Positions 16,636 to 57,948 of a stretch of DNA of 64,000 bases are shown piece by piece. The notes beneath the pieces were generated by a model. The model did no database searches, was not told the origin of the DNA, and worked only from the letters and a program-made list of their open reading frames with translations. The translations under genes and the position numbers were made by a program. Location: positions 1 to 64,000 of the forward strand of contig MKVQ01000030.1 in assembly GCA_001899635.1 (NCBI GenBank), written 5' to 3'. This DNA comes from Myxococcales bacterium 68-20. GTDB lineage: Bacteria > Myxococcota_A > Polyangia > Polyangiales > Polyangiaceae. Numbering within the stretch: position 1 is the first letter of the stretch; each line of letters starts with the position of its first letter.

Positions 16636-18459
16636 TCAGTGCACCGTCGGCAGCGGCGCGTCGTTCACGGGGCGACTGGCCATTCCGCCGGCGTAGCCGT
16701 AGCTCGCCCACGGAGCGAGGCCCCAGACCGTGATCGAGAATGGTCCCTCGCTCTGCGCTTCGTGACGGCCGTAACCGCACTCGCCCTTGTCGAACTTCTG
16801 AGGGACGGCGCCCTTCGTGAGGTCGACGAAGGCGTATTCGTATTCGCCTTTCGTGCCGAGCGGGACGAAGCCCGTGAGCTCGCCAGCGCAATCGAGGACG
16901 ACGGGATGAAAGCCCGTCGGCGTCTTTCGACGGACGACGACGATCGTGGTCTCCGGGAAGGTGTAGTCGGTGAAGAAGACGTAGCGATCGAGGAACTGAT
17001 CCGATGGGACCATCGTGACGAAGTCGGGATCGCCGATCGTGACGTTGCCGTGGGTCGCGCCCCCGCCGTACGTCCCGCCGGTCATGTGGACGGCGGCGTA
17101 GAAAGGATGCTTCGAGTCCTGGCTCTTCACCGAGACGCGTGCGTCGGTGATGAAGTTCGCGACCTGCCCAGCCGAGAGCGTGCCCGGTGCGCCGGGCGGC
17201 TGCTCGGGATCGTAGGTGAGCACGGTGCCGTCGACGGCGCCGACGATGGTCCACGGCACGTTCTCGCGCATGACCGACGTGAGGCCGACGGTGCGCGGCT
17301 TGAACGGAACGAGGGCGTACTCCGTGCCCCACTGGGCAAAGGGCGGGATCTGCTGCTGAGTGACATCGCACGCGGGCGACGCGTTCGGAAGGTAGACGCA
17401 GGGCGAGCCGCCGAAGACCGCGACCGGCTTGTTCGAGGAGATCGGGCTTCCGGAGAGTGTCAGGATCTGCGTGATCTGGAGGACCTCGCCGCGCGACAGC
17501 TTCCACGTCGTAGGAGCGCCAGCCGCGGCGGGCTCGACGCCGATGCCCTCGAGGACGGCTTCGGTCGGACGCATCGAGACCTCGGTGCCATCCTCGTTCG
17601 CGACGATCTGGAGTGTGCGCGGGTCTTCGGCGACGTAAGGATCGTCAGGCCCGAACCGCCCAGTCGAGACGGCGACGTAGCCGGTGTCCCAGGACGAAAC
17701 CGGAAGGAGCAGCGACGCGGACGGCGTCGCGCTCGCTGCTCCGCCGTACGGGAAGATCGAATACGCGGCGACCGGCGCGTCGGCGGTGATGTGGAAGGCT
17801 CGGGTCCTGACCGTGCCCCCCGCGACGGCCTCCTCCTTGGACGCCGGCACGACGCCGGGCGGGCATTGCAGGTTCTTGGTCTCCGCTCCGCCGGCGTCGA
17901 CCCGCGCGACCTGGGAGAGGAAGACGAGCGCCACCGCTCCCGGCGGGACCGGCCCCTTCAACTGCGTGTAGACGGGCGTCGTGCCCTCGACCGAAGCAGT
18001 GTAGACGGACTGTGAGATGTCCAGCGGTGCGCTGCCGAGCTCGGCGCCGAGGGTCACCGGACGGTCCCAGGTGTTGGCGATCATCGCGACGAAGCAGGCG
18101 CCAGGAGCAACCGCGACGTCGTCGGGTGGCAGCGTCCAGAACGAGCAGCCGACGGAGCCCTTGGAGAGCGCAGCGGCCTGGCATGCATCGACGCACCGGT
18201 CGATTCCGCAGCCCTCGTCGGGACCGCACGTCGCGATGGTCTCTTCCGCTCCACCGTCACACGTGCTCATCACCTTCTTGAGATCGCGCGAGCAGCGGTA
18301 GCTGCATGCGCCGCCATCCGTCAGCGAAGCCTCCGGGAACGGAGGGGGCGGTCGCTCGAAACCATCACGCTCGCTCGAGCACGCCGAGGCGAGCAACGTT
18401 GCGAATGCGGTGCCGCCGATGGCGAACGTGGCAATCCCCACGCGAAGCTTGGAGTACAT
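16636..18459 (-). CDS. Cluster A: IgGFc-binding-domain lipoprotein
   Basis: The protein has 607 residues. A lipoprotein signal ends at Cys27 (LLASACSS), followed by a Pro/Asp linker and a Cys-rich segment (GACSYRCSRDLKKV, CGPDEGCGIDRCVDAC). From about residue 200 the IgGFc-binding N-terminal-type domain is visible: AYSIFPYGGAASATPSASLL, LPVSSWDTGYVAVS, ISSNKPVAVFGGSPC and IPPFAQWGTEYALVPF. The name comes from a mammalian mucin-like protein; no IgG binding is implied for bacteria. It is the last gene of cluster A, 12 bp after the RCC1 gene, and has a full-length paralogue at 49411-51204. An outer-surface or periplasmic location after lipidation is inference. Confidence 0.8.
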   Translation of the reverse strand: MYSKLRVGIATFAIGGTAFATLLASACSSERDGFERPPPPFPEASLTDGGACSYRCSRDLKKVMSTCDGGAEETIATCGPDEGCGIDRCVDACQAAALSKGSVGCSFWTLPPDDVAVAPGACFVAMIANTWDRPVTLGAELGSAPLDISQSVYTASVEGTTPVYTQLKGPVPPGAVALVFLSQVARVDAGGAETKNLQCPPGVVPASKEEAVAGGTVRTRAFHITADAPVAAYSIFPYGGAASATPSASLLLPVSSWDTGYVAVSTGRFGPDDPYVAEDPRTLQIVANEDGTEVSMRPTEAVLEGIGVEPAAAGAPTTWKLSRGEVLQITQILTLSGSPISSNKPVAVFGGSPCVYLPNASPACDVTQQQIPPFAQWGTEYALVPFKPRTVGLTSVMRENVPWTIVGAVDGTVLTYDPEQPPGAPGTLSAGQVANFITDARVSVKSQDSKHPFYAAVHMTGGTYGGGATHGNVTIGDPDFVTMVPSDQFLDRYVFFTDYTFPETTIVVVRRKTPTGFHPVVLDCAGELTGFVPLGTKGEYEYAFVDLTKGAVPQKFDKGECGYGRHEAQSEGPFSITVWGLAPWASYGYAGGMASRPVNDAPLPTVH

Positions 18460-18471
18460 CGTCGAGCCTCT

Positions 18472-19902
18472 CTAGAACGTGATCTTCGTCGGCGTCGGAT
18501 GGGCGCCGTGGTCCGGCGTGAGCCCGAGCTCGCCGCTGGCATTGCTCCCCCAGCACTCGACGGTGCCGCCTTGCACGAGGGCGCAGATGCTGGCGAGGCT
18601 CGCGGCGACCTGAACGGCGCGCCCCTTGAAGGCGCTCGCTGCGGTGAAGGAGGCGCTGAAGCCGTCAGCGCTCCCCGTGCCGAGGGCCCCGTGAGTGTTC
18701 TCGCCACAGCATTGCACCGTGCCATCGGTCATGCGTACGCAGGTCGTCTCGTCGCCGACGGCGATCTGTTGTGGCCACGCCGGCCCCGAGACGAGGGCAC
18801 GCTTCGGCACCGGCTCGCGATCGGGAAGCCCCGTGCAGAGCGCGCCGTAGAGGCTCTTCCCCCAGCAGAAGACCTCACCGTTCGCGATCGCACATCCATG
18901 ACCGTAGGACGGCATCGGAGCCGGACGCTGATTCGCGTCGGACGGCTGGCGCTGGAGGAGCGGAGAGACGGCGACGCTCGTGACCTTCGACAGCTCCACG
19001 AGCCGCTTCGGCGTGCGAGAAGGGCTCACCGACGAGATGCGACCAGAGACGAGCCCGTCGTCGCCCGAGATCGCGCCCCAGCTGAACACGTCGCCCGTCG
19101 TCGTGAGAGCAAGCGTCGTCTTCGAGCTGATGAACGTCTTCCTAAACGTGGAGGCGTCGAGCTCGGCTTCGCCCGGCCCGATGGCGACTTGAAACGGGTC
19201 ATCGAAATCGGGGCGAGCGAGCTTCATGTATTGGGTCCCGCCCCAGCAAACGAGCTTGCCCGTCGTGAGCAGTGCGCACGCGCTGTCGATCCCCACGTCG
19301 ACGCGCGTAACGCTCGCACCGCCGAGCGCGACCGGCGAGGGAATGGGATGGCGATCGACGTCCTCCGAAGGAGGATCGACCTCGAGGCCGAGCTCGCCGA
19401 GGAGGTTGCTGCCCCAACATTGCACCGCGCCGTCCACGAGGAGCGCGCAGGTCGAGCGACCACCAGCGCTGATCTGGATCGCGTTGGTCAGACCGACCAC
19501 GGGCGGAATCGCGCCGGCGTCGCCGTCGGACGACGTCTCGTCCGCTTCGCCGCGACCGAGCTGGCCCCAAAAATCGTCACCCCAGCAGCGCACCGTGCCG
19601 TCATTCATGCGCGCGCAGTAGTGACGCTCGCCGGCGACGAGCTCGACGGCGCACGGATTCGCCGTGCACGTGACCGGCTCGGTGGCCGCGTCGAACGGTG
19701 GCCGTGCGTCGACGGCCGGCGTCGCGTCGGGGCTCTCCTCGGGAGGAGAGCTCGCGTCGGCGGCGTCGTCGGCAGCGTCGGGCGCGCTCGGCTCGAGCGC
19801 GACCTCGTCCGAGCTGCACGCCGCAACGGACATCATGACCGCTGCCGCCGCAGCGGACGCCGTTGCAGCTCCGAGCAAGAACCTTCGAATGCGAGCTCTC
19901 AT
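18472..19902 (-). CDS. Cluster A: RCC1-repeat lipoprotein
   Basis: The protein has 476 residues. A lipobox gives Cys29 (MSVAACSS), followed by an Asp/Ala/Pro-rich spacer. The body is a run of RCC1 blades of about 50 residues, recognisable from repeats such as RCWGDDFWGQLGRGEAD, QCWGSNLLGELGLEVD, FCWGKSLYGALCTGL and ECWGSNASGELGLTPD. These should fold into a seven-blade propeller, a protein-binding scaffold. Each blade also has a paired CA/CALL motif of the bacterial secreted type, perhaps disulphide-bonded. It starts 7 bp after the preceding gene and has a paralogue at 51201-52595. The partner protein is unknown. Confidence 0.85.
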   Translation of the reverse strand: MRARIRRFLLGAATASAAAAAVMMSVAACSSDEVALEPSAPDAADDAADASSPPEESPDATPAVDARPPFDAATEPVTCTANPCAVELVAGERHYCARMNDGTVRCWGDDFWGQLGRGEADETSSDGDAGAIPPVVGLTNAIQISAGGRSTCALLVDGAVQCWGSNLLGELGLEVDPPSEDVDRHPIPSPVALGGASVTRVDVGIDSACALLTTGKLVCWGGTQYMKLARPDFDDPFQVAIGPGEAELDASTFRKTFISSKTTLALTTTGDVFSWGAISGDDGLVSGRISSVSPSRTPKRLVELSKVTSVAVSPLLQRQPSDANQRPAPMPSYGHGCAIANGEVFCWGKSLYGALCTGLPDREPVPKRALVSGPAWPQQIAVGDETTCVRMTDGTVQCCGENTHGALGTGSADGFSASFTAASAFKGRAVQVAASLASICALVQGGTVECWGSNASGELGLTPDHGAHPTPTKITF

Positions 19903-19909
19903 CGCGCGC

Positions 19910-21106
19910 TCACTTCTTCTTCGTGGGGTCGAGGTGGAGAGCGATGCCTTCGCCGACGACCCAGAGATCGTCCGGGCCCTTCACCCAGAAGGCATGGAGG
20001 TTTTCGATGACCGGGAACTTCGTGACGGTGAGCGCGGGGGCCGACCACCGACTGCCGTTCCAGTGGCGCATCCGTCCGTACTCGCCGGCTACCCAGAGAT
20101 CGTCGTCAGTGGTCGCGGCGACGGCAAACGACGAGAGACCATTGAACTCACCGTTGAACTCGGCATGCTCGAGCGTGAACGTCAGCCCGCCGTCCGTGCT
20201 CTTCCCGCGAATGAGCATCTCGTCCCCGAACGGTGTTCGACCGAGCAGCACCATGCTCGTGTCCGAGAGCACCGAGACGCTGGCGAGCTCGCCGGGGTCG
20301 TACGCCGTCTCGGTCTCCGGATCGTCCGGATCGGCGGGCGCCAGAACGGGCGCAAACTCGGTCGCTCCAGGCTGGCGGCGATAGATGCGCCCCGGCGCGC
20401 CCGAGTACACATCACCCAGGATCCCTCCGAGCCAGACCCCGGAAGCGGCGGTGCCCCAGACGTGCGTGAAGCGCATCTCGGGATCGACCGTCACCTCCGA
20501 CCAGGACGACGGTCCGCCGCCACTACTGGGCGCGTAGTGGAGGACGCGCGAACGCGGGAGCGAGTCGTTTCGGACGACCACGGCCCAGACGTCGTTCGCG
20601 CTGGTCCCCCAGATCGACGCGATCTCACCCATCGGCCTCGTCGTGGCGGCGAACGTCAGCGCTGCCGGGCTCGCGCCGGTGCCGTGGAAGAGGACACTCT
20701 GGCCGCCGACCCAGACGTCGGTCGGCCCGCTGCCCCATACCGCGCTGAGCGGACCGAGCCCCGAGGCATGGATCTTCCACTCGGTCTGATCCCAGCGAAG
20801 GATGGCGCCCTGGCCGCTCACGGCCCAGACGATGCCTTGACCATCACCCCAGACCGCGCGGAGCGTCTGCCCGGTCGGCAGCGCCGTGTGGCAGAACCCG
20901 TCACCGGAGCATTCGCGCGGGGGAGACGCGTCGACATCGGCATCCTCGCCCTCGCTCGGAGGCGCCGATGCATCAGTGGGAGGCGCCACCGCTCCGCTAT
21001 CCGCTTCCGGCCGAGGCTGCACGTCCTCGCTCGCCGCACAGGCGACGACGAGATGAACGAGCAGAGCCCCGGCGCAGGCTGCGCCCAATCGAACGATGGC
21101 GCTCAT
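19910..21106 (-). CDS. Cluster A: WxG/DVWVGG-repeat lipoprotein 1
   Basis: The protein has 398 residues, with a lipobox at Cys23 (LVVACAAS). After an Asp/Pro-rich spacer come repeated motifs of the form VWG...DVWV/AV: LRAVWGDGQGIVWAVSGQGA, LSAVWGSGPTDVWVGGQSV, IASIWGTSANDVWAVVV and FTHVWGTAASGVWLGG. The C-terminal part has DDDLWVAGEYGRMRHWNGSRW. The repeats suggest a beta-propeller. The ATG overlaps the preceding gene's stop (ATGA). Its positional paralogue in cluster B is at 52570-53919. Function is unknown; extracellular binding or scaffolding is inference. Confidence 0.75.
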   Translation of the reverse strand: MSAIVRLGAACAGALLVHLVVACAASEDVQPRPEADSGAVAPPTDASAPPSEGEDADVDASPPRECSGDGFCHTALPTGQTLRAVWGDGQGIVWAVSGQGAILRWDQTEWKIHASGLGPLSAVWGSGPTDVWVGGQSVLFHGTGASPAALTFAATTRPMGEIASIWGTSANDVWAVVVRNDSLPRSRVLHYAPSSGGGPSSWSEVTVDPEMRFTHVWGTAASGVWLGGILGDVYSGAPGRIYRRQPGATEFAPVLAPADPDDPETETAYDPGELASVSVLSDTSMVLLGRTPFGDEMLIRGKSTDGGLTFTLEHAEFNGEFNGLSSFAVAATTDDDLWVAGEYGRMRHWNGSRWSAPALTVTKFPVIENLHAFWVKGPDDLWVVGEGIALHLDPTKKK

Positions 21107-22335
21107 CGAGAACCTCCCGCGTCACCGAGCGCGCCACCCGTGTAGTGGAGCGCGACGCCGTCGCCGACGATCCAGACGTCGTCGCGCGCGCTGCCCCAGA
21201 CGCCGTGGAGCGCGGGCTTCTTGCCGGCCGGAAACGCTGCGAGCGTCGTGCTCCAGGTGTGGCCGTCGTAGTGGATGATGGTGCCGGCATCGCCGACCGC
21301 CCAGACGTCGTCGGCCGTCGAGCCCCAGACAGCACGGAGGTGCTCGCGTGTCGGCGACGGGACGACCTCCCAGTCGCTGGCGTTCGCGCTCGTGATGTGA
21401 CGAATCGTGCCCACGTCGCCGACGGCCCAGATGTCGCTCGCCGAGCTGCCCCAGACCGCGCGCAGGGTCACCGCCGAGTGCGTGTCGACCGCAGCCCATT
21501 CGAGCTCGCTCGCATCGGAGGGGAGCGTGCCGTGGAGCGACATCGAGCGTTGCCAGCTCACGTCTGCCGAGTTGTCGGCGACGAGCCAGATGTCGTTCGC
21601 GGCCGAGCCCCACATGCCGAACACGCTCGCTGTCCCCGGCACGCCTTGCCAACCGATGCCTCCGTCGTCGAGGTTCGTCTTGGTGAATGCGTTCACCGTG
21701 ACGACCTCGCCCATCTCGTCGAACATCATCGAAGCGCGCCCGGCGAGGCGGACGTCGGCGGCGGAGGTCCCCCAGATCGCGAAGAGAGGTACGTCGAGGC
21801 CCTCTTCGATGGGCAGCCGCACGTTCTCCCACTCCGTCGCGGCGCCGGCGTAACCGCGCGTGCGGAACACCGCGTCCGTCGCGCTCGCGATCCACACGTC
21901 GTTCGGACCGGTGCCTCGGACCGCGTAGAACGTGTTCTTCACCGGGAGCTTCGGCGGGTAGAAGCTGGTCGGCGTCGGCACCACCGTCCACGCCTTCCCG
22001 TCCCAGTGCACGACCGTCCCGTTCGAGCCAACCGCCCAGACGTCGGTCTTGCTCGATCCCCACACCGACGTGAGCGCCGCAAAAGCGGACACGTTTGTCG
22101 GCACGGGACACCACGGGACTTCGGCGCAGGAGAGAGCAGGAGCGCAGCCCTCGTCCGAGGCATCACATCCGCCCTCTGACGCAGCATCGAGACCGCCAGC
22201 GTCGATGTGGATGGAGGCGTCCTCGTGAGCGATCTCCTGTTTCTCGGTGTCGGCGCAGCTCACGAACGCGACGACCGGAAGGAACAGGGCACCGAGCAGT
22301 GACGCGCGGAGAAGCGTTCGGCCTCGAGAGAGCAT
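21103..22335 (-). CDS. Cluster A: WxG/DVWAVG-repeat lipoprotein 2
   Basis: The protein has 410 residues from the ATG at 22335, which shares a base with the preceding stop (TGATG). A lipobox gives Cys27 (VAFVSCADT). Repeats are very regular: LTSVWGSSKTDVWAVGSNGT, LFAIWGTSAADVRLAGRA, LRAVWGSSASDIWAVGDVGT and LRAVWGSTADDVWAVGDAGT, ending HGVWGSARDDVWIVGDGVA. This is a probable beta-propeller surface lipoprotein. The two propeller genes of the cluster are related to each other as well as to those of cluster B. The ORF is open upstream to 22392, but the signal peptide fixes the start used here. Confidence 0.78.
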   Translation of the reverse strand: MLSRGRTLLRASLLGALFLPVVAFVSCADTEKQEIAHEDASIHIDAGGLDAASEGGCDASDEGCAPALSCAEVPWCPVPTNVSAFAALTSVWGSSKTDVWAVGSNGTVVHWDGKAWTVVPTPTSFYPPKLPVKNTFYAVRGTGPNDVWIASATDAVFRTRGYAGAATEWENVRLPIEEGLDVPLFAIWGTSAADVRLAGRASMMFDEMGEVVTVNAFTKTNLDDGGIGWQGVPGTASVFGMWGSAANDIWLVADNSADVSWQRSMSLHGTLPSDASELEWAAVDTHSAVTLRAVWGSSASDIWAVGDVGTIRHITSANASDWEVVPSPTREHLRAVWGSTADDVWAVGDAGTIIHYDGHTWSTTLAAFPAGKKPALHGVWGSARDDVWIVGDGVALHYTGGALGDAGGSR

Positions 22336-23561
22336 CAGTTGACCTTCCCGGCGTCGCTGCATTCGGTCATCAGGCACTTGCCATGGATGCACGGCTGCCC
22401 AGCGTTGAGGTCACAGGCGTTGCCGCACGACCCGCAGTTGCCGGGATGGGCCAGCAAGTTGGTCTCGCAACCGTCGGACGGATCGCCGTTGCAGTCGCCA
22501 AAGCCCGGAAGGCAGTCGAGCTCGCATAGCCCTTTGCGACACGCTCGAACCTGATTCGGGCCGGCTTCGGGGCACACGTTCGTGCAGGCTCCACACGCCG
22601 TCGGATCGTTGAGGAAGTCACGGCACCCGAGCAGCGGGCAGAACGTCATCCCCTTCCCGACGCACTGAACGGCACAGTAGGAGCCACCCTGCCCGTTGAT
22701 GCACTTCTCGCCCGCTTCGGTATCGCACTTGATCCCGCAGCCACCGCAGTTGTTCGGGTCGAAGTTGATGTCCTCGACCTCGCAGCCGTCGGAGTTGCAC
22801 TCCGGATCCCCGAGGTCCTTGTTGCAATCACCCCTCGAGCCCCGGCACTTGGGAGCGCCGCAGACGCCGCCAGCGCATCCGTAATAGGCAGTCTCCGGTA
22901 GGGTGCACGGCCCCTCGGTCTGCTCGCACGTGATCCCGCAGCCGCCACAGTTCCAGTCGTCGCCCAGAGGATCGGTGCACATGCCGTCGCAGACGATCTG
23001 CCCCGGCGGGCACCCGCATTTGCCCTCGATGCACGGCGCGCCGTTCGCGCACACGTTCCCGCACGCACCGCAGTTCTTGTCGTCCGAGTTGACGTCGACC
23101 TCGCAGCCGTCGTCGACCTTCCCGTTGCAGTTGCGCCATTCCCCGCCGTCGCCGGGGATCTTCGGGCTCCAGCATTCGAGCTCGCAGCCGCCTTCGATGC
23201 AGCGCGAGGTCATGTGAAGGCGACCGTAGTGGCGACACTTGTTCCCGCACGCGCCGCAATGATCGACGTCGCGCTTCAGGTCCGTGCCGCACTTGTACGC
23301 AGGCCCGCCCCCGCTCGCGCAGGTCCCGAAGCCTTCGGGGCACGTCGTGCCGACGCACAAGAGGAGACTCGCCGCGTCCGGCGCGACGCTCGGCGCTTCG
23401 CCGTCGGGTTGCTCGAAGATCCCTCCCCGACCGGCATCGTCTAGGAAGATGACGCTGTCCACGGGCGACGTGCACGACGTGACGAGGATCACGCTTCCCG
23501 CCAACGCCGACGCCGCGAGAGCGATCTTGCGCGCCGAAACCAGATTGATCGCCTTCATCAT
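22335..23561 (-). CDS. Cluster A: Cys-rich Stig1-like repeat lipoprotein
   Basis: The protein has 408 residues. A lipobox gives Cys30 (VILVTSCTSP). The mature part is made of six or seven Cys-rich units of the type NCGACGNVCANGAPCIEGKC and NCGGCGITCEQTEGPC, separated by segments such as DGCEVDVNSDDKN and CNGDPSDGCETNLLAHPGN. This is the pattern often annotated as Stig1-like in myxobacteria. The many paired Cys imply disulphide-stabilised export. The ATG overlaps the stop of the upstream anti-sigma candidate (ATGA). Its paralogue is at 55115-56392. Confidence 0.82.
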   Translation of the reverse strand: MMKAINLVSARKIALAASALAGSVILVTSCTSPVDSVIFLDDAGRGGIFEQPDGEAPSVAPDAASLLLCVGTTCPEGFGTCASGGGPAYKCGTDLKRDVDHCGACGNKCRHYGRLHMTSRCIEGGCELECWSPKIPGDGGEWRNCNGKVDDGCEVDVNSDDKNCGACGNVCANGAPCIEGKCGCPPGQIVCDGMCTDPLGDDWNCGGCGITCEQTEGPCTLPETAYYGCAGGVCGAPKCRGSRGDCNKDLGDPECNSDGCEVEDINFDPNNCGGCGIKCDTEAGEKCINGQGGSYCAVQCVGKGMTFCPLLGCRDFLNDPTACGACTNVCPEAGPNQVRACRKGLCELDCLPGFGDCNGDPSDGCETNLLAHPGNCGSCGNACDLNAGQPCIHGKCLMTECSDAGKVN

Positions 23562-24307
23562 GGCGTCGCCGTCTTCTGTGCAGCAGCCTTCGTCACGAGT
23601 GAGCGCACGCGGTTCGCGTACGGGCTGTCGGGGCTGCGGGTGAGGAACGCTTCACCGAGCGCGCGCGCCCGAGCCGCTTCCCCGCGTGCGAGCAGCGCTT
23701 CGATGCGCATGACGGCGACCTCGCGCTCGAAGACACCGGCGCGAACCCGCCGATCGTATTCGTCGAGCTGAGAAAGGCAGCCCGCGGCGTCGCCCGTCGC
23801 GAGCGACGTCCGTGCGGCCTCGACGAGGGCAAGCTCGTCGTCGAACGATGCTGGCGTCGCGTTCGTGCTCGCAGCCGTCGTCGGGCGAGCACGCGGCGCC
23901 AGCTTCTCCGCCAGCGGCGTCGCCGTCGGGAGCTCGTCGACACGCATCGTCTTCGCCTCGACGGGCGCCGGCGCCGCCCGCGACACGACCTCGTCGACCG
24001 TCGCCGGTGCGGCCACCGAGGATGTCGGACCAGCCGCGCCGGAGCTCGAATGATGCAAGTACCATCCGGCGCCGATCGCCATCGCGAGCGCGACGAAGGC
24101 TCCCGCCTTCAGCGAGAACATCGATCGCCCGACCTGCACCGAGGCGCCGGGGTCGAATTTGGAGCCTCTCGTAGCGTCGAACCGCGCGAGAGCGCGCTGC
24201 ATGCGCGCCTCCGCAGGCTCGTAGCTCTTGGCGACCTCGAGGGCGTCGACGAGGCGCGCGTCGGTCGAGGACTCACTCAAGCGAGGCGGGAAGGTCGGCT
24301 CTTTCAT
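23558..24307 (-). CDS. Cluster A: one-pass membrane protein, candidate anti-sigma factor
   Basis: The protein has 249 residues. The ATG at 24307 overlaps the sigma gene stop. A cytoplasmic N-terminus of about 64 residues includes DALEVAKSYEPAEARMQRAL, followed by one membrane helix at about 65-86 (SLKAGAFVALAMAIGAGWYL). The periplasmic part is Pro/Ala-rich and ends in a TPR-like helical domain (ELALVEAARTSLATGDAAGC, RIEALLARGEAARARALGEA, SPYANRVRSLVTKAA). There is no HxxxCxxC zinc anti-sigma motif. The anti-sigma role is inferred from position and topology. The positional paralogue at 56432-57262 has the same layout. Confidence 0.7.
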   Translation of the reverse strand: MKEPTFPPRLSESSTDARLVDALEVAKSYEPAEARMQRALARFDATRGSKFDPGASVQVGRSMFSLKAGAFVALAMAIGAGWYLHHSSSGAAGPTSSVAAPATVDEVVSRAAPAPVEAKTMRVDELPTATPLAEKLAPRARPTTAASTNATPASFDDELALVEAARTSLATGDAAGCLSQLDEYDRRVRAGVFEREVAVMRIEALLARGEAARARALGEAFLTRSPDSPYANRVRSLVTKAAAQKTATP

Positions 24308-24948
24308 CGGGTATCTCGACCAAACGGGGGGGCATTCGCATCTGCGCGTGCGAGCGCCTCGCGGAAATCCTCTCGTGCTTTGCGGAGCCGTGAGGCCACC
24401 GTTCCGGGAGGGATTCCGAGATGCTCGGCGATCTCGCGCCCGCTGAGCTCCTCGAGCTCGTAGAGCACGAAGACCTCGCGACGTTCGGGGTCCATGCTCT
24501 CGAGGATCCTCTGGATCATCGCGAGCGTCTGCTTGCGCTCGAAAGCGTCCGCTGGATCCGCATCGGGCGACAGCGGAGCCTCCTCGAGCTCCTCGAGCGT
24601 GGTGTTCCGGACAGCGTGACGGTTTCGGCGGCGCCCGACTTCTCGGGCGACGTTCACGCAGACCGCGCAGGTGTAGGCCCGCAGCTCTGCTCGGTTCGGG
24701 ATCTCGTCGAACTTCCGATCCGCGGCGATGAGAACGGCCTGCAGTGCGTCGTCGATCTCGGCGTTCTGCACGCCCAGACGCTGGAGGACGCGGAAGGCGA
24801 CCTTGACCAGCGGTTCGATGGCCGCGCGAAATCTGGCGTGACGCGTGGCGATGTCGCCCTCCCGCGCCTCGACCCCGCCGATCGCCGCAACACACTCCAC
24901 ACTACTGGAGCGGTCCGGCCGCCCCGTTTGATCACGAGGGGGCCACAT
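24304..24948 (-). CDS. Cluster A: ECF-type sigma factor
   Basis: The protein has up to 214 residues. Region 2 is seen in LVKVAFRVLQRLGVQNAEID and ALQAVLIAADRKFDEIPNRA. Region 4 is clear: MDPERREVFVLYELEELSGR followed by the helix-turn-helix IAEHLGIPPGTVASRLRKAR. The annotated ATG at 24948 may be too early, because the GTG at 24900 (VECVAAIGG) aligns better with cluster B. The stop overlaps the anti-sigma candidate. A 73-bp gap to the OMP gene upstream contains TGATCA, also found upstream of the cluster B sigma gene. It probably directs transcription of its own cluster; that is inference. Confidence 0.88.
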   Translation of the reverse strand: MWPPRDQTGRPDRSSSVECVAAIGGVEAREGDIATRHARFRAAIEPLVKVAFRVLQRLGVQNAEIDDALQAVLIAADRKFDEIPNRAELRAYTCAVCVNVAREVGRRRNRHAVRNTTLEELEEAPLSPDADPADAFERKQTLAMIQRILESMDPERREVFVLYELEELSGREIAEHLGIPPGTVASRLRKAREDFREALARADANAPPFGRDTR

Positions 24949-25021
24949 TTATCGCTCGACCGTCACGGCTCCTCGAGCTCAGGCATTGGACAGCGTCTCG
25001 GCCGCGCGCCCGCCTCGCGGA

Positions 25022-26137
25022 TCAGAACCGCCACTCGACCAGCAAGCCCCCCGTGATTCCGACCGGCGGCGCCTGCGAGACGACCCCGCCTTCGACGAAC
25101 GCAAAGCGATGGCGCACGAACGGGGCGGAGACGAGGATCGTCGCCCCGACGCCCACGGATTGACCGATCCGGTAGACCACTCGACCTGATCCGCCCACGT
25201 CGAACCAGGCGCTCGACACCCTGCGTGCGGCCGGCGTCGTCCGGGCCTCCGCTTGGAGAACCCCCGCATTGGCTTCGGCACAGGGAACGGCATCGAGTCG
25301 ACCCGACGCGAAGCGGAAGCGCACCGGACAGAGTCGAAACATAGCCGTGGTCCACGAGAACTCCGAGCTCCCGAAGGGCGCATCCACGACGACGGGAAAG
25401 CTCTGCCTCACGCCCACTGCCAAGGACGGGGCGAGCCATTCCGGGACGCCCGGCGGAGCCGCACGCACGTCGACGGCAGCTCCAACCACCGGTGCAACGT
25501 CCCGGACGACCGCAGACGTGACCTCCCCCCGCGCTTCGAGCGCAAACGTCAGCACCGGACGCCGCGCGCCGGATGGTGCGCCGACCTTCCCCCTCGCCTT
25601 CTCCTTTTCGTTCTCCGTCCTCCGCTCCGTGGCCTTCTCCTTCCCCGCGTCCTCGGGACGAGCTGGTGGAAGCGGCGGATGCTCAGGCTCGCTCGCCACA
25701 TCGAGCGCCTCGGGCTCGGGAGCCGTCTTGGGAGGCACCTCGGAGATGTTCGCCTCCGGATCGATCGCCAGCGCCATGGCGATGGCCAGCCCGCGAGCGA
25801 CGCGCTCGCAGTCCGGTGCCACGATCTCGCGCTGGGTCACTTCTCCGTTCGGCGTCTCGATGACGAGCACACCGCGATGCTCCGCACCGCGTCGTCCGAG
25901 CACGACGCGAAAGCTCCGGACGCTCGAGCTCGAGTCGACGACTTGCCACTTCGTCGTGTACCTCCTCACGTTCCCGATGAAGCGCTCCTCGGAGGGGCAG
26001 GACTCCTGCGCAGCGTACGCGACGGAAACGCGCTCCGCCTCGGGCTCTCCCGCGCGCGCGCGGAGCGGCATCGACGCAAGGCAGACCGCGAGAACGAGGG
26101 CAGCCGTCGTGGCGCACACTCTGTGAAATCGCGGCAT
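25022..26137 (-). CDS. Cluster A: outer-membrane beta-barrel protein
   Basis: The protein has 371 residues. A signal peptide is cleaved near ARA-GEP (about residue 29). The N-terminal domain has ESCPSEERFIGNVRRYT and DCERVARGLAIAMALAIDPE. A Lys/Glu/Pro-rich linker follows at about 140-190. The C-terminal half alternates hydrophobic and polar residues and ends VGITGGLLVEWRF, with the terminal Phe usual in outer-membrane barrels. It is probably the first gene of cluster A. The paralogue at 57949-59052 keeps the CPSEE motif, the linker and the barrel. Its cargo or ligand is unknown. Confidence 0.72.
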   Translation of the reverse strand: MPRFHRVCATTAALVLAVCLASMPLRARAGEPEAERVSVAYAAQESCPSEERFIGNVRRYTTKWQVVDSSSSVRSFRVVLGRRGAEHRGVLVIETPNGEVTQREIVAPDCERVARGLAIAMALAIDPEANISEVPPKTAPEPEALDVASEPEHPPLPPARPEDAGKEKATERRTENEKEKARGKVGAPSGARRPVLTFALEARGEVTSAVVRDVAPVVGAAVDVRAAPPGVPEWLAPSLAVGVRQSFPVVVDAPFGSSEFSWTTAMFRLCPVRFRFASGRLDAVPCAEANAGVLQAEARTTPAARRVSSAWFDVGGSGRVVYRIGQSVGVGATILVSAPFVRHRFAFVEGGVVSQAPPVGITGGLLVEWRF

Positions 26138-26325
26138 TCCTCGCCCCGAGCTAACGGCCTACTCCCGAGCAGGTCAAGCTCGAAGGGGCGCAGCGGGTCG
26201 CGCTTGCGGCCGGCTCGGGTCATCCGCGCGCCGCGCGTCACGCTATCCTCGATGGACGGCGCGCGCAGACGACCGTCGCGAGCACGAACGTACCGGGAGG
26301 CGCCGCGCGGACGCCCCCGACCGAG

Positions 26326-49410: not shown

Positions 49411-51204
49411 TCAGTTGACGGTGAGCGGCGTGGTCACAAGCTTCCGGATCGCCATGCCGCCGGGATAGGCGTAGCTCGCGGCGACGCCCCAGCCCCAGAT
49501 CGTCGCGGTGAATTCGCCCTCGCTGCGCATGCGCTGAAGGCCCGTGATGCAGCGCTTGTCTCCAAACGTGTCGCCCGGGCCGAAGTCGCGCGACAGGTCC
49601 ACGCGGCGGTACTCGTAGTCGCCCTTCGTATCGATCGCCTTCCAGTCCGGCAGGTCGCCGGCGCACTCGAGCCACACGTCCTTGAACTCACCACGGTGAC
49701 GCTTTCGGACGATGACGAGCGAATTCTCGGGGTAGGTCGAGTCGGCGTAGAAGCTGTACGAGTTTCGGTATTGCCCCGCGGGCACGACGTTGACGAACTC
49801 TGGATCGCCCATCGATCCGTGGCGCGGCTCCGTGGGGGAACCGCCGCCGCCGCTCATGTGCATCGCGAGGTAAAACGGGTGCTTGGCGCCGTGCGAGCGA
49901 ACGACGAACGGTTCGCTCGCGCGCGCGCGAAAGAGCACGAACTCGCCGGCGGAGAGCGTGAGCGGCGCACCGGGGGGCTTGACGGGATCGTACGCGAGCT
50001 CGGTGCCGTCCCGCGCGCCGACGATCCGGTACCAGACGATCTCCTCACCGTCCTTGATCCGCGGGCGGTAGGCGGCGGCGACGTACTCCGTTCCCCACTG
50101 CTCGAAGGGCGGAATCTGCTGCGCGAGCGTATCGCAAGCGGTGGCCGTGTTCGCGATGTTCGCGCAGTCGTTGCCGCCGAGCGTCACCGTGGGCTTGTTC
50201 GAGAAGACGAAGCTGCCGGTGAGCTCCTCGGTCTGATGAAGTTGCGCGAACTGTCCCTTCTGGAGCTTGATCTTCGCGGGTTGCCCGGCCGCGGCACCGG
50301 CGAAGCCGTCGCCGTTCAGGATGTCCTTTCGGCCAAGGAGCGTGATCTCGGTGTCGTCTTCAGCCGCGTAGATCTGCGTGATCGGGCGTCCGTTGAGGCC
50401 CTTCTCCCAGCCGTTGACGACCACGTGCTCCCTCGCCCAAGCGCTCACTGGCAATACGAGCGTCGCCGAGGGGACGAAGCTCGCCGCGCCACCGTACGGG
50501 TACATCGACGTGACGCCGACGGGGACGTTGCTGGTCATACGGAACGCGCCGGCGATCCTGGAGCCGTAGATCCCGAAGTCTTGCTCGACGGCCGCCGTCA
50601 CGGCGCGTGGGCAGCCGATGTAGTTGAGCTTCTCGTTGAGCGTGCGCGCTTTGGTCTGATCCCGATCGGAGACGAAGACGATCGCGCTCTCTCCGGGTGC
50701 GATCGGACCGTCGAGGAGCTCGAGGTCGGTGCTGTTCGGGACGGCTCGGAAGAGCGAGTGAGACAGATCGAGCGCCACGCCCTCGCGCTCGAGCGTCACC
50801 GTGGCTGGCTGGTTCGACGTGTTGACGACAAACGCTGCGTGGCACGACTGCGGATACGACGCGGTGAAGCGGGGGGCGGAGAAGTAGAAGTCGCAGCCGT
50901 CCGAGCTTCGATCCGCGGCCGCGGCGTCGCAGGGCTTCTGGCACTTGGCGGCGCCGCACGCCAGATCGTCGGCGCACTTCTCAACCTCCGCGCCGGTGCA
51001 CGAGTCGACGACTGAGCGTCCGTCGAGCGAGCATTGCGTGTAACACGTCTCTGCATCGGGGCCGGCGTCGGCGACGGGCACGAGCTCCTCGGGACCGTGC
51101 GTGAAGTCCTCGCGATCGCCGCTGCACGCGCCGGTCGTGGACGCGATGAGGCCGAGGCCGAGCACGACGCCGATGGCGCCCACGGAATAGCGCGCGCCGT
51201 TCAT
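49411..51204 (-). CDS. Cluster B: IgGFc-binding-domain lipoprotein
   Basis: The protein has 597 residues from ATG 51204, which overlaps the RCC1 gene stop (ATGA). A lipobox gives Cys27 (STTGACSGD). A Cys-rich segment follows (ETCYTQCSLDGRSVVDSCTG). The IgGFc-type domain has SMYPYGGAASFVPSATLVLP, VSAWAREHVVVNGWEK, VFSNKPTVTLGGNDCANI and IPPFEQWGTEYVAAAY, matching the cluster A paralogue motif by motif. It closes with ASYAYPGGMAIRKLV, equivalent to ASYGYAGGMASRPV in A. It is the last gene of cluster B. The ligand is unknown. Confidence 0.82.
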   Translation of the reverse strand: MNGARYSVGAIGVVLGLGLIASTTGACSGDREDFTHGPEELVPVADAGPDAETCYTQCSLDGRSVVDSCTGAEVEKCADDLACGAAKCQKPCDAAAADRSSDGCDFYFSAPRFTASYPQSCHAAFVVNTSNQPATVTLEREGVALDLSHSLFRAVPNSTDLELLDGPIAPGESAIVFVSDRDQTKARTLNEKLNYIGCPRAVTAAVEQDFGIYGSRIAGAFRMTSNVPVGVTSMYPYGGAASFVPSATLVLPVSAWAREHVVVNGWEKGLNGRPITQIYAAEDDTEITLLGRKDILNGDGFAGAAAGQPAKIKLQKGQFAQLHQTEELTGSFVFSNKPTVTLGGNDCANIANTATACDTLAQQIPPFEQWGTEYVAAAYRPRIKDGEEIVWYRIVGARDGTELAYDPVKPPGAPLTLSAGEFVLFRARASEPFVVRSHGAKHPFYLAMHMSGGGGSPTEPRHGSMGDPEFVNVVPAGQYRNSYSFYADSTYPENSLVIVRKRHRGEFKDVWLECAGDLPDWKAIDTKGDYEYRRVDLSRDFGPGDTFGDKRCITGLQRMRSEGEFTATIWGWGVAASYAYPGGMAIRKLVTTPLTVN

Positions 51205-52595
51205 GGAAGCACTACTTCCCTCGGCACGGAGACCGAGAGCGTGGGGGTAGTGGAGCCGAGCTGCCCGTGGGCGTTGTTTCCCCAGCAGTACACTTTGCCG
51301 CTCGTCAGGAGGGCGCACGTCGAATAAGGCATGACCTTCACCTCGGCTGCCGGCGCGGGGAGTCCCTGGACGCGCACGGCGGAAAGCGCAAACTCTTTGG
51401 TGCCGTCGCCGGCCTGGCCCATGTTGTTCAGGCCCCAGCAGTAGACGTCACCTGACGTCGTCGTCGCGCACCAGCGACGCTTCTCCACCGACGTCACGTA
51501 GTCGTTCGTCACGAAGTAGGACTGCGTCGTCGCGATGCGCGTGATCGGCTCGGGCATGTCGACGGCGCGCGGCGTCCCTCGTAGCTGCGCGCTCGGGATG
51601 TCGAAGGTGGACCGCGCGTCGGCGGCGCCCCAGCACCACCCGACGCCGTTCGCGACCGCGCACGCTTCTTCGCCGCTCGTGGACACCATCGTGACGTGCT
51701 CGAGCGCGACGGGGGACGGCCAGCCGTCTGCAGTGAGCGGGGTTGGGCGGCCAACGGTGGGCGCGGTGCCCCAGCTCGAGAGCGTCCCGTCCTCGTGCGT
51801 CGTGAAAGTTGCGCCTCTTGACGCGCCGTACGCCACGGCGATGTCCTTCGCGCTAGCGGCCAGGTCGATCGCGTGAGGTTGCGTGTTGGCAGCGCTCGTG
51901 GAGAGCTCCGCGCTCACCTGGAGCGTGGCGTTCGTTCCCCAGCAGACGACGCTCGCGTCGCGGAGAATGGCGCACCCGACCCACTCCGAGACCGCGACCT
52001 TGTTTGCCGGCCCGGGGAGCGCCAAGCGGACGGGGCTCGTTTGAACGGTGGTCGCGGAGGCATCGCTCTGAAGGAACGGGCCACGGCCCCAGCACCAGAC
52101 CGCGCCGTCACCATCGACGGCGCACGTTCGGTCGAGGTGCGTGATGTCCGAGAGGCCGGGGACGCGGACCGCGCTCGCGCTCTGCGCGACGTCGGGGATC
52201 CCGAGCTGTCCGGCGTTGTTCGCGCCCCAGCACGCGACGGTGCCGTCCGTCAGGAGCGCGCAAAACCCCTCCTCGCGCGCACCGGTCCCGCTCGGTAGGG
52301 GCGTCGAGAGCGCGAGCGCGCACGGAGCGGCTTCGCACGCGATGGGCAGCGGCGAAGCATCGACGAGCGCCGCGTCGACGAGGGCGACGTCGTCGGTACC
52401 CGCATCGACGACGTCGTCCTCGAGAGCGCCGTCGGAGGCCGCGTCCGCGCTGCCTTCTCCGCCATCGTTCTCTGACATGGGACGGTCGTCGCTGCTCGAG
52501 CAACTCGTCGTCACCGACGTGATCAGCGACGCGCCGGCGAGCGCGAGCAGCGCGGTGTACGCGCGAGGGTCAAGGGATCGTCTTGTGAAACGCAT
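51201..52595 (-). CDS. Cluster B: RCC1-repeat lipoprotein
   Basis: The ATG at 52595 gives 464 residues. A lipobox gives Cys32 (SVTTSCSSSD), followed by an Asp-rich spacer. RCC1 blades are visible: ACWGANNAGQLGIPD, WCWGRGPFLQSDASA, VCWGTNATLQVSAE, YCWGLNNMGQAGDGTKEF and YCWGNNAHGQLGSTT. It is predicted to form a seven-blade propeller outside the cytoplasm. The start overlaps the end of the preceding gene by 26 bp, so translation is coupled. It is the positional paralogue of 18472-19902. Confidence 0.85.
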   Translation of the reverse strand: MRFTRRSLDPRAYTALLALAGASLITSVTTSCSSSDDRPMSENDGGEGSADAASDGALEDDVVDAGTDDVALVDAALVDASPLPIACEAAPCALALSTPLPSGTGAREEGFCALLTDGTVACWGANNAGQLGIPDVAQSASAVRVPGLSDITHLDRTCAVDGDGAVWCWGRGPFLQSDASATTVQTSPVRLALPGPANKVAVSEWVGCAILRDASVVCWGTNATLQVSAELSTSAANTQPHAIDLAASAKDIAVAYGASRGATFTTHEDGTLSSWGTAPTVGRPTPLTADGWPSPVALEHVTMVSTSGEEACAVANGVGWCWGAADARSTFDIPSAQLRGTPRAVDMPEPITRIATTQSYFVTNDYVTSVEKRRWCATTTSGDVYCWGLNNMGQAGDGTKEFALSAVRVQGLPAPAAEVKVMPYSTCALLTSGKVYCWGNNAHGQLGSTTPTLSVSVPREVVLP

Positions 52596-53919
52596 GGCGA
52601 ACTCCAACCGCCCAGAGGTTTTGATTCGAGGTGCCGCGGACCCTTCGCACGGACGCGCGGACGGCGGTGCCGTCTCGCGAGAGCGTGGACGTCGAATAGG
52701 TGCCGTCGTCCGCGCCTCGGAGGACGAGCCCCCACGCGGACAGCCAGGTCTCTCCGTCGCCGCGCCAGAGCGAGTGCGCGGCGTTCGGTGGCCCCGAGCC
52801 CACGCCGAGCTTGAGCGGAACGGCCGACTGCGCGAACGTTATCGCGGAGCCGCCGTCCGTCGCGTCGCTGTCCCCGATGCGAATGTGCGTGAGCTCGACG
52901 CTCGCTGTAGAGAGGGCGGACCTCCCGTTGTACAGCGCGACGTACTCGGTCGCGCTCACCCGCCCGACGTTGGAGAGCCAGCCGCTGAACGTGTTGCCCA
53001 CGCGTTGCGTGCCTGCGCGCGCGGCGCAGGGAGCGGAAGAGCTCGTCCCGACGACGCCATCGGCGATCCGCTCCCAGCCTGCCGCCGTCTTCCGAACGAC
53101 GAGCGGACAGTGGAGGTTCGTGCTCAACGCGCTCGAGCGGTCGCGCGCGCCGACGAACCACATGTCGTCTGGCCCGGTGCCGGCGGCGCTGACGAAGAAG
53201 GCGTGCTCGCTCGCCGCGTCGAGATCGCTGACCGTGTACACGGCCGACCAGCTACCGTCCGCCGGATCGCGCCGAAAGATCGTGTTGCTGAAGTATGCAT
53301 ACACGTTCGCGGTGTCGAAGCCCCACACTCCCATCACCGGTACGCGCTCGCGCATGGCGCTCGAGTAAGGTCGTCCGTGTTCGTGCGATGCGGAATGCCC
53401 GACGATGGCGTCGGGCAGGTCGGTGCGCGTCCACGTCCACTTCGTCTCCGGTGGGACGCCGCGCTTGCCGCGGTAGATGCTCGACGGGCCGGACGCGAAG
53501 TACACCTCGTCCTCGTTTGGCGCGTACACGGCTGACGCGAACGCGCCAGGGCGGTTCTGGCTCTGGTCGTCGATGTACTCCCAGGCGTTGGTGGACTTCT
53601 TCCACTCGAGGAACTTCACGCCCTCCGAGGCACTGTCGGCGATCGCAAACGCAACATCCTCGAACGGCCAAACGTCACGGAAGTCGAGGTCCGCGTCGGG
53701 GAAGGCGGTGACGCACCAGCCTGCGCTGCTGCAGTCCGGCAGGCGCGTATCCCCGTCGGCGTCCGCCACGTCGACGTCGACGTCCGGGAGGCCGCTGTCC
53801 GGGATCGGCGCGGGAGGGGCCTCCGCGGTGGGGGGCGTCGACTCCTCCTCCGAACTCGCGCAGGCGGCGATCGCCGCCAGCGACGCGGCCGTGGCCGCGA
53901 GCAACATCGAAGCTCTCAT
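52570..53919 (-). CDS. Cluster B: WxG-repeat lipoprotein 1
   Basis: The ATG at 53919 gives 449 residues and overlaps the previous stop (ATGA). A lipobox gives Cys20 (AAIAACASSEE). The region after the Asp/Pro spacer has LDFRDVWPFEDVAFAIADS, VMGVWGFDTANVYAYFSNTI, GTGPDDMWFVGARDR and RGTSNQNLWAVGVRHAF. The repeats are less regular than in the cluster A equivalent, and the protein is longer (449 against 398). A propeller fold is inferred. Gene order makes it the partner of 19910-21106. Confidence 0.72.
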   Translation of the reverse strand: MRASMLLAATAASLAAIAACASSEEESTPPTAEAPPAPIPDSGLPDVDVDVADADGDTRLPDCSSAGWCVTAFPDADLDFRDVWPFEDVAFAIADSASEGVKFLEWKKSTNAWEYIDDQSQNRPGAFASAVYAPNEDEVYFASGPSSIYRGKRGVPPETKWTWTRTDLPDAIVGHSASHEHGRPYSSAMRERVPVMGVWGFDTANVYAYFSNTIFRRDPADGSWSAVYTVSDLDAASEHAFFVSAAGTGPDDMWFVGARDRSSALSTNLHCPLVVRKTAAGWERIADGVVGTSSSAPCAARAGTQRVGNTFSGWLSNVGRVSATEYVALYNGRSALSTASVELTHIRIGDSDATDGGSAITFAQSAVPLKLGVGSGPPNAAHSLWRGDGETWLSAWGLVLRGADDGTYSTSTLSRDGTAVRASVRRVRGTSNQNLWAVGVRHAFHKTIP

Positions 53920-55118
53920 CGTTTTCCTCCGAGCGAGACGATCGCGCCCTGCCCGGCGACCCAGACCTTCCCCGGTGCCGCGATCCAGATCCGATCGAAC
54001 CGCGGACGCCTTCCGTCGAGACCAGCCACCTTCACGCGCGTCCACGCCGCTCCGTCGTAGTGAAAGACGATGGCGTCCTCGCCGGCGACCCAGATGTCGC
54101 TCGGCGACGTGCCGGCGACCGCGTAGAGGTGCTCTTGCGTCGGGATCTCGTCGTAGCTCTCCCAGAACCGCGCGTCGCCGCGGTAGCGCCGGACGGTGCC
54201 GGTCGCGCCGACGGCCCAGACGTCGTTCTCCGCCGCCGCCCAGACGCCGTGGAGCGCGTAGACGGTCTGCGTGTTGAAGCCGGTGAGCGTCGGCGTGTCG
54301 GACTCGGCGTCGGTGACGCGGAACGCGGCTCCTCTCGGTCCAACGGCCCACACCTCATCGCCGGAGAGCCCGTGCAGGCCGTAGACCTCCTTGCACGGGA
54401 GCGTGGTGCACTTGTCGAGCGTCAGCGGGTCGAAAGTGAACGCGTTGCTCTCGCTCGAGTAGCGCATGCGCCAGAGCCCGCCCCTCGTCCCTTGCGTCGT
54501 CGCTCCGATGAAGAGCGAGCGCGAGCCGGGGGCCGCCCACGTCGTCTCGACGCGCATGAAGGAGTTGCCCCATGCGGAGTGCACCGTCACCGCGGGGAAA
54601 AGTGACCAGCCGTCGGCGGACGCATCGGTGCCGGCGTCGAGGCCGCGCGTGTAGAGCCGCTTTGGATCGTCGAACGCGACTTCGGCATCGTCGCGGAGCC
54701 AGAGCCCGTAAAACGAGTTCTGAACGTCCGCGTTGGACCGCCTCCAGGCGGTACCGTCGAAGCGCGCGATGGCGCCCGAGGTCCCCGCCAGCCACAGATC
54801 GTCGGGAGCCCGCCCGGTGAGGGCATGGACGTGGGTGCGCGGATCGAGCGTCGTCGGCGTGCTGCTGTTCGAGAAGAGCGCCGCCGCGCAGAGCGCGTCT
54901 GGAGTGCACTCGGTGGGGAAGAGCTCGCAGTCGTCACACGCGCCCGCGTCAGCGGCGTCGCTCGCTTCGCCGCCGTCCAAGGCTGGGGCGGGAACGGGGG
55001 TGTTCCGCTCCTCGGACGGCGCGTCGCTCGTTCCGCCGTCGTTCGCGCACGCCGAGAGCACCGCCGCCAGCGCGGAGAACGCGGTGCTGGCGATGGTCAA
55101 AGTCCAACGTTTCCTCAT
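53916..55118 (-). CDS. Cluster B: WxG/DVWAVG-repeat lipoprotein 2
   Basis: The ATG at 55118 gives 400 residues, overlapping the Cys-rich gene stop (ATGA). A lipobox gives Cys24 (AAVLSACANDG). Repeats include VHALTGRAPDDLWLAGTSGA, VYGLHGLSGDEVWAVGPRGA, LHGVWAAAENDVWAVGATGT and LYAVAGTSPSDIWVAGEDAI. This is a probable beta-propeller surface lipoprotein, equivalent to 21103-22335. The frame is open upstream of 55118, but the signal peptide fixes this start. Confidence 0.77.
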   Translation of the reverse strand: MRKRWTLTIASTAFSALAAVLSACANDGGTSDAPSEERNTPVPAPALDGGEASDAADAGACDDCELFPTECTPDALCAAALFSNSSTPTTLDPRTHVHALTGRAPDDLWLAGTSGAIARFDGTAWRRSNADVQNSFYGLWLRDDAEVAFDDPKRLYTRGLDAGTDASADGWSLFPAVTVHSAWGNSFMRVETTWAAPGSRSLFIGATTQGTRGGLWRMRYSSESNAFTFDPLTLDKCTTLPCKEVYGLHGLSGDEVWAVGPRGAAFRVTDAESDTPTLTGFNTQTVYALHGVWAAAENDVWAVGATGTVRRYRGDARFWESYDEIPTQEHLYAVAGTSPSDIWVAGEDAIVFHYDGAAWTRVKVAGLDGRRPRFDRIWIAAPGKVWVAGQGAIVSLGGKR

Positions 55119-56392: not shown

Positions 56393-56431
56393 GACCTTGA
56401 ACCTCGTGTCGCGTTCGCGTTCGACCGAACG

Positions 56432-57262
56432 TCAGAGACCGGAGCGCTCGTGCAGCGAGCGAACGCGGTCGGCGTAAGGGCTCGCTCCGTGCGCTGCCAA
56501 GAACTGCTCCGCAGCGGTCCGTGCTTGCGCGCGGTCACCTGCGTGAAGCAACCCTTCGATGCGGATCACCTCGACCTCCTGCGCGAAGGTCCCGGCGCCG
56601 AACCGCGTGCGGTGAGCGTCGACCGCGCGCATGCACGCGGCGACATCGCCGCGCTGCAGGCCAGCGCGCGCCGCCGAGACGAGCGCGAGCTCTTCGTCGA
56701 ACGACGTCCCGCTCGCGGCGGCGGGAGCGTCGTCGCCGTGCGCGCCGCGGCTCGGCATCGGCGCGTCGGCCTGCGTTGCCGTCGCGATCTCGCGTGTCCC
56801 GCTCTCGGCGCGGCGCGCACGCGGCTCGGCCGACGCGGAGCGCGCGGGCGCCGCGAGCGCCGCGGGCGCGAGGTCCTCGATCGACAGCATGGGCACGGGC
56901 GCCTCGCTCGAAGCTTCGTTCGTCGAGAGCAACGCGCGCGCTTCGTCGGCTTCGCTCGTCGTGACGACGCCATCGAGCGCTGGCGGAGCCTGCGGGGCCG
57001 CGACAGCGTGCGCGGGCTCGCTCGCGTCGTACGCGCTCGTCCCGACGGCGATGCCGAAGACCGACACGCCGACGGCGGCGATCCCGAGCGCGACGCTCGG
57101 ACGAGTCGTCCACCACGACCGACGAGGAGCCGCCGCGGCCTGCGTCGCGAGCGCACGGAGCTTCTCCATGTGCGCGGCCGGCGGGCCGTCCTGCTTGCTC
57201 ACCGCCAGGAGATGCGCGATCCCCGGGTCCTCTTCGAAGAGTCGCTTCGGGTCGGAATTCAT
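56432..57262 (-). CDS. Cluster B: one-pass membrane protein, candidate anti-sigma factor
   Basis: The ATG at 57262 gives 276 residues and overlaps the sigma gene stop. The cytoplasmic N-terminus is about 54 residues (RLFEEDPGIAHLLAVSKQDG). One membrane helix lies at about 55-76 (SVALGIAAVGVSVFGIAVGT). A Pro/Ala/Ser spacer and a TPR-like C-terminus follow (EELALVSAARAGLQRGDVAA, SPYADRVRSLHERSGL), close to the cluster A sequence SPYANRVRSL. No zinc motif is present. The anti-sigma role is inferred from position and topology. Confidence 0.7.
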   Translation of the reverse strand: MNSDPKRLFEEDPGIAHLLAVSKQDGPPAAHMEKLRALATQAAAAPRRSWWTTRPSVALGIAAVGVSVFGIAVGTSAYDASEPAHAVAAPQAPPALDGVVTTSEADEARALLSTNEASSEAPVPMLSIEDLAPAALAAPARSASAEPRARRAESGTREIATATQADAPMPSRGAHGDDAPAAASGTSFDEELALVSAARAGLQRGDVAACMRAVDAHRTRFGAGTFAQEVEVIRIEGLLHAGDRAQARTAAEQFLAAHGASPYADRVRSLHERSGL

Positions 57263-57945: not shown

Positions 57946-57948
57946 TGG

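Follow-up and report, generated by a model that had tools for sequence, protein, structure and literature searches.

Clusters A (positions 16636–26137) and B (49411–59052) of the 64-kb stretch of DNA analyzed here (the window) belong, as ordinary members and not as a special pair, to a family that numbers about 139 operons in the source genome, that of a soil bacterium. Sequence comparison among the family members showed that each operon consists of two units: cassette 1, encoding an outer-membrane protein (OMP), an ECF sigma factor and a predicted single-pass membrane protein with TPR-like repeats (TM protein), joined to cassette 2, encoding five lipoprotein-like proteins. That these operons form a shuffled two-cassette repertoire is highly probable, and the explanation that best accounts for the evidence as a whole (with a probability of roughly 0.55) is that shuffled two-cassette operons encode surface complexes that would be switched through the OMP, the TM protein and the sigma factor.

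The eight gene types reported in the earlier note were all found as ORFs in A and in B, on the minus strand and in the order it gave, and their starts overlap (ATGA/TGATG-type) or nearly abut, as it had described, start codons being inferred. Cluster A comprises the OMP A1 (25022..26137); the ECF sigma factor A2 (24304..24948; Sigma70_r4_2, 6.8e-17; TIGR02937, 1e-22); A3 (23558..24307), a single-pass membrane protein and candidate anti-sigma factor or regulator, with weak TPR/YfiO matches, described through a family alignment and consensus; A4 (22335..23561), a Stig1-like/MXAN_6577-like Cys-rich lipoprotein (Stig1, 5.2e-07; NF041328, 5e-21, under its cut-off); the WxG-repeat lipoproteins A5 (WxG1, 21103..22335), which at full length is genus-specific, and A6 (WxG2, 19910..21106); the RCC1-repeat lipoprotein A7 (18472..19902; RCC1_2, 2.9e-40); and A8 (16636..18459), a lipoprotein with an IgGFc_binding domain (PF17517, 1.4e-100). 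In cluster B the corresponding genes are the OMP B1 (57949..59052; 39% identical to A1 by BLASTP, 7e-54), the ECF sigma factor B2 (57259..57945; Sigma70_r4_2, 9.2e-13), the single-pass TM/TPR protein B3 (56432..57262), which pairs with A3 by BLASTP and has weak TPR/YfiO matches, the Stig1-like Cys-rich lipoprotein B4 (55115..56392; Stig1, 4e-04, under the cut-off), the WxG lipoproteins B5 (53916..55118) and B6 (52570..53919), BLASTP pairs of A5 and, weakly, A6, the RCC1 lipoprotein B7 (51201..52595; RCC1_2, 2.8e-23) and the IgGFc lipoprotein B8 (49411..51204; PF17517, 1.5e-93). The OMPs and most of the WxG proteins of A and B had no Pfam family match. Lipoprotein signals had been assigned to the last five proteins; a strict simple pattern detected a lipobox-like motif in 53–77% of the members of each of the five families, which supports their lipidation without proving it. 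Directly downstream of A, also on the minus strand, lie Omp85/POTRA (TamA-like) and TamB proteins (9684–16474), families of outer-membrane protein assembly, and between A and B a FecR-domain protein (PF04773, 2.2e-17) adjoins a sigma region-4 match (32270–33590, minus strand), forming a classical-looking ECF/FecR pair.

Profile searches of the source genome (11.89 Mb in 52 contigs, 98% complete, contamination estimate 4%) detected about 139 Stig-like loci, a count based on a single assembly in which some loci are partial where contigs end. Among these, 93 are canonical copies (OMP-σ-TM-Stig1-WxG-WxG-RCC1-IgGFc), which span 9.6 kb at the median (n = 93), and 125 contain σ and Stig1. The family covers 1.23 Mb in total, about 10% of the genome, over 38 contigs. 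In the first profile searches of this genome the OMP gave 64 matches and IgGFc at least 33 (the best 33 of 144 candidates), and iterative profiles applied to about 2.1 Mb around the loci retrieved 131–143 genes per class and 263 WxG genes. Operon-level paralogy is thus extreme here: some 139 copies of an eight-gene operon occupy about 10% of a genome, and most copies carry their own sigma factor. A third family cluster, L138 (C30:95097-111097), is located on the window's own contig about 40 kb past B. Cassette-1 genes also occur without a lipoprotein half in the ~2.1 Mb of stretches (18 lone OMP and 6 sigma-TM loci), and some of these may represent split or divergent arrangements. The sigma-factor set of the genome is very large, with at least 150 sigma region-4 (PF08281) matches and 443 candidates.

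Seen against this family, the description of A and B as complete paralogues holds insofar as all eight genes pair by BLASTP, seven of them strongly (E <= 5e-20) and the second WxG pair (A6/B6) weakly (5e-04, chiefly over the signal peptide), but they are not each other's closest relatives because about 139 such loci exist in the genome. The expectation that A and B would be closer to each other than to other members failed: for the lipoprotein half, B is more distant from A than are 83 of the 92 other canonical operons. Ranked among all pairs, A and B stand fairly high in the similarity of their sensor halves (95th percentile) and rather low in that of their lipoprotein halves (15th percentile), which in itself points to mixed ancestry. 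The proposal of a conserved envelope module was right and indeed understated, given the copy number and the recurrence of the same gene order in other genomes; as an evolutionary unit, however, the single module gives way to two cassettes with unrelated histories, as evidenced by identity correlations, trees and synonymous distances.

In the 93 canonical operons, pairwise identities correlated at 0.73–0.77 within OMP-sigma-TM and at 0.85–0.95 within Stig-WxG-WxG-RCC1-IgGFc, compared to 0.02–0.09 between the halves, and when the genes were cut into blocks the switch in correlation fell between TM and Stig. Nearest neighbours agreed in 39–63% of cases within halves vs 2–12% between them, and a Mantel test between halves gave r 0.05 (p 0.02). 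Maximum-likelihood trees of the two halves had 1 of 90 splits in common, with 53 of the 54 supported splits contradicted, whereas control trees built from two parts of one half shared 58/90 or 36/90 splits. A weak, coarse association remains (same lipoprotein subfamily in 0.56 given the same sensor subfamily vs 0.36 expected, p 0.002), meaning that the shuffling is not fully free. At the DNA level, swapped pairs are 85–88% identical over about 6.9 kb and have unrelated OMP-sigma-TM genes. In C17_56079 and C40_512502, for example, a tract of 6.97 kb that begins within Stig and runs slightly beyond the IgGFc stop is 88% identical, and OMP-sigma-TM similarity is only at background level; the synonymous p-distance is 0.16–0.22 for WxG/RCC1/IgGFc, 0.57–0.67 for OMP/sigma/TM and 0.32 for Stig, which spans the joint.

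The joint is near-fixed, as the alignments show, by the first conserved cysteine of the Cys domain of the Stig1-like protein. The change point fell at residues 60–69 of A's Stig protein in 21 of 28 swapped pairs, not all of which are independent, and the cysteine adjoining the joint is invariant in 93/93 operons, with a steep climb in DNA conservation at this position. The correlation of Stig's signal/tether part is weak with either half, so that the crossover is placed only approximately within the tether and signal peptide. At the other end, cassette 2 finishes with the IgGFc stop codon (that of A8 in cluster A), and swapped similarity stops at or just past it. These comparisons show that cassette 2 has been exchanged between operons, although transfer of the cassette and gene conversion are not fully separable. 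In the latter case, concerted evolution would homogenize the lipoprotein half among resident operons, with tracts copied and no cassette moved. Tandem arrays such as the C17 operons, with near-identical lipoprotein halves and unrelated sensor halves, are consistent with such copying, as is the fact that the tracts are bounded by conserved blocks of homology, the Stig Cys domain on one side and IgGFc on the other. Nevertheless, the swapped tracts run to the IgGFc stop and not to varied points inside a homologous gene, and sensor halves have close relatives on distant lipoprotein halves (e.g., 0.57 in the former with 0.29 in the latter), making gene conversion a rather unlikely account, and one that would in any case produce the same shuffled repertoire.

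Regarding the function of the shuffled operons, the AlphaFold2 model of A1 (pLDDT 77) shows, after a signal peptide, an N-terminal alpha-beta periplasmic domain (residues ~35–131) that is TolB N-domain-like (TolB, Z 9.0 over 97 aa), a disordered Pro-rich linker (~134–190) and an 8-stranded barrel (195–371) that matches NspA/OmpA (Z 16.8/16.6). In the TM protein family the cytosolic N-terminus is short and carries a recurrent 'P.RL' motif; it is followed by a single TM segment, a Pro/Ala linker and a TPR-like C-terminus, a topology deduced from hydrophobicity and alignment. A3 and B3 did not match any anti-sigma or FecR family model (PF04773 included), and FecR was detected by the same Pfam search in another gene of the window. 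Based on this architecture, the OMP would span the outer membrane and, through its N-terminal periplasmic domain, contact the TM protein at the periplasmic C-terminus of the latter; the TM protein in turn would hold or release the ECF sigma factor with its cytosolic N-terminus; cassette 2 would supply an outer-surface complex of five lipoproteins, their surface exposure being assumed from the lipobox-like motifs. Contact with a ligand or partner at the surface would then switch transcription, as occurs in FecA-FecR-FecI. Within this proposal the domain order and the co-inheritance of OMP, TM protein and sigma factor were observed, and the contacts and the signal are suggested by analogy with FecA-FecR-FecI; signaling from the OMP through the TM protein to the sigma factor is a tentative, if plausible, part of the overall explanation.

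Another view of the same proteins is that the lipoproteins and the OMP form a non-signaling surface machine, an adhesin or a gliding/predation complex, with the sigma-TM pair setting its level under general envelope stress. This would agree with the beta-rich, repeat-type lipoproteins and with the IgGFc model, which weakly resembles beta-sandwich and pilin/adhesin domains (Z < 8). The best structural matches of this model were Thermotoga TM1070 (Z 7.7) and the Anabaena sensory rhodopsin transducer (Z 6.5), which is no proof of a new fold; no solved relative was found by sequence, and Foldseek gave none with E <= 0.001. One sigma factor per operon in about 125 copies is, however, hard to explain by a single stress signal, and this view is unlikely.

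The preferred reading, that of OMP-TM-sigma-switched complexes, does not extend to the idea that the ECF sigma factor controls its own operon, which the earlier note gave as common for such factors. The ECF promoter hallmark, AAC (-35) ... CGT (-10) (PMC8103513), occurred in the -80..-1 region of 9 of 107 operons vs 7 and 4 in control windows, a count from which unusual ECF specificities would escape; as it is not enriched, ECF autoregulation is unproven. Neither dyad counts, an EM motif search (with scores from a control of unsuitable background left out), orthologue footprints nor upstream-similarity tests revealed an ECF-specific or sigma-covarying motif. The only promoter signature found was a shared -10-like element, TA(G/C)NNT(C), immediately ahead of the OMP gene: TA...T was present in 60 of the 107 upstream windows adjoining the OMP start, compared to 5–18 in control windows and 1–17% before internal genes, and in the stricter TA(G/C)NNTC form the hexamer lies about 10 bases from the start codon. 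This pattern fits a single near-leaderless transcript from a housekeeping-like (sigmaA-like) -10. The promoter-proximal block of A (26138..26200, minus strand) is conserved with the orthologous locus L257 as CTTGACCTGCTC..GGAG.AGGCCGTTAGCTC, and farther upstream the loci are unrelated.

The same gene order is present in the Labilithrix sp. MAGs ACE_MYX5, MYX7 and MYX8 and partly in Polyangiaceae bin.255, where it is cut by a contig end, so that the search for a second genome, as advised in the earlier note, gave at least three others of the genus and, in part, a fourth assembly. Full-length WxG1 was found only in the window's genus (at least 17 in the source genome, at least 17 in G003, about 11 in G006, 2 in G009, 1 in G011 and a single weak edge match in G004), the other members of the genus and the remainder of the 108 family genomes having only generic repeats among the matches listed. 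The TM protein of cassette 1 was detected in 96 of the 108. Judged from these distributions, obtained for other genera mainly through marker searches, cassette 1 appears to be an ancient ECF cassette of the whole family, and cassette 2 appears to have arisen within the genus. In ACE_MYX8 (L260) the OMP-sigma-TM half is divergent, on the strand opposite to the lipoprotein half, which indicates that the halves need not stay coupled.

In ACE_MYX7, the locus orthologous to A (L257) has all eight genes, 71–87% identical; similarity sets in some tens of bases ahead of the OMP and ceases at the IgGFc stop, and the flanks are unrelated. Synonymous divergence between A and L257 is fairly even (pS 0.24–0.34) and pN/pS ranges from 0.24 to 0.54 across the eight genes, pointing to joint inheritance under purifying selection. 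Thus, as these alignments show, whole operons occupy different genomic sites in sister species. Together with the range of copy numbers in a single genus (0 to about 139), the occurrence of the whole operon and its short upstream block at unrelated sites could indicate a selfish or mobile operon family, spread through movement and retention and not through differing jobs of its copies. This is quite improbable in view of the purifying selection on all eight A genes and of the unit itself, which carries no transposase or integrase and has no terminal repeats, shared terminal sequence or 3' motif at the operon ends, nor long inverted repeats bounding A or B. Mobility via integrase or DDE_Tnp_1 elements is likewise unlikely with only 6 matches to each genome-wide. 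Ordinary tandem or whole-operon duplication with a merely faster-evolving sensor half, in spite of the tandem neighbors (18 adjacent operon pairs within 3 kb) and of the OMP being the most divergent gene (mean identity 0.21), is extremely improbable, as synonymous divergence differs about 3-fold between the halves of one pair, the half-trees conflict with support, true orthologues diverge similarly in all eight genes, and faster evolution of the sensor half is ruled out by synonymous sites.

If the shuffled operons do act as switched surface complexes, the expanded set would provide a combinatorial repertoire of complexes, each wired to a different switch, that might be used, e.g., in the recognition of prey, kin or substrates. 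A combinatorial recognition system of about 139 OMP-sigma switches and five-part surface complexes, with halves exchanged at a defined joint and many input-output pairings per cell, is a more tentative suggestion than the signaling itself, and recognition as the purpose of the repertoire is doubtful; the adhesion or recognition complex put forward in the earlier note is likewise conjectural. Such a system would follow the same logic as repertoires of shuffled receptors. The two-cassette exchange makes it testable which half sets specificity, whether more than 100 ECF switches in one cell are insulated from one another and which surface targets are recognized, and nature provides in this family a collection of matched OMP/TM/sigma sets that could serve orthogonal signaling.

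No description of this gene set was found among the open-access papers examined, and one of the closest resemblances is to the cell-surface signaling system FecA-FecR-FecI (reviewed in PMC9249621). Like this system, the family combines in one locus an OMP with an N-terminal periplasmic domain, a single-pass regulator whose predicted topology places a short N-terminus in the cytosol and the C-terminus in the periplasm, and an ECF sigma factor, and possibly shares with it the lack of ECF autoregulation. FecA, however, is a TonB-dependent 22-strand receptor with an STN-type signaling domain, whereas the family OMP is an 8-strand OmpA-like barrel with a TolB-N-like domain; the TM protein bears TPR-like repeats and does not match FecR, and in the family operon five lipoproteins follow and there are no iron genes. 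On the most likely reading, the family would work by analogy with FecA-FecR-FecI without belonging to it.

Large sets of paralogous operons with linked ECF/anti-sigma factors are also characteristic of the SusCD polysaccharide-utilization loci of Bacteroidetes, each of which, like the operons described here, has a regulator of its own alongside outer-membrane and surface lipoproteins. The family differs from them in that its halves shuffle at a fixed joint, and Pfam searches detected no SusC, SusD or glycan enzymes in the 16 window proteins of A and B. Surface/antigen shuffling systems such as pilin shufflons and polymorphic toxin cassettes generate new combinations through cassette exchange at a fixed joint; here a five-gene half-operon is exchanged, and near A or B neither a recombinase nor silent cassettes nor long inverted repeats were seen. 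The same Pfam searches found in these 16 proteins neither a toxin domain, among the known toxins that Pfam recognizes, nor the PA14 domain of TraA of the TraA/TraB kin-recognition system. Finally, the MXAN_6577-like Cys-rich proteins and free-standing IgGFc_binding proteins of Myxococcota belong to the same families as A4 and A8 and occur order-wide, standing outside the genus, in the loci sampled, without the other genes of the cluster.
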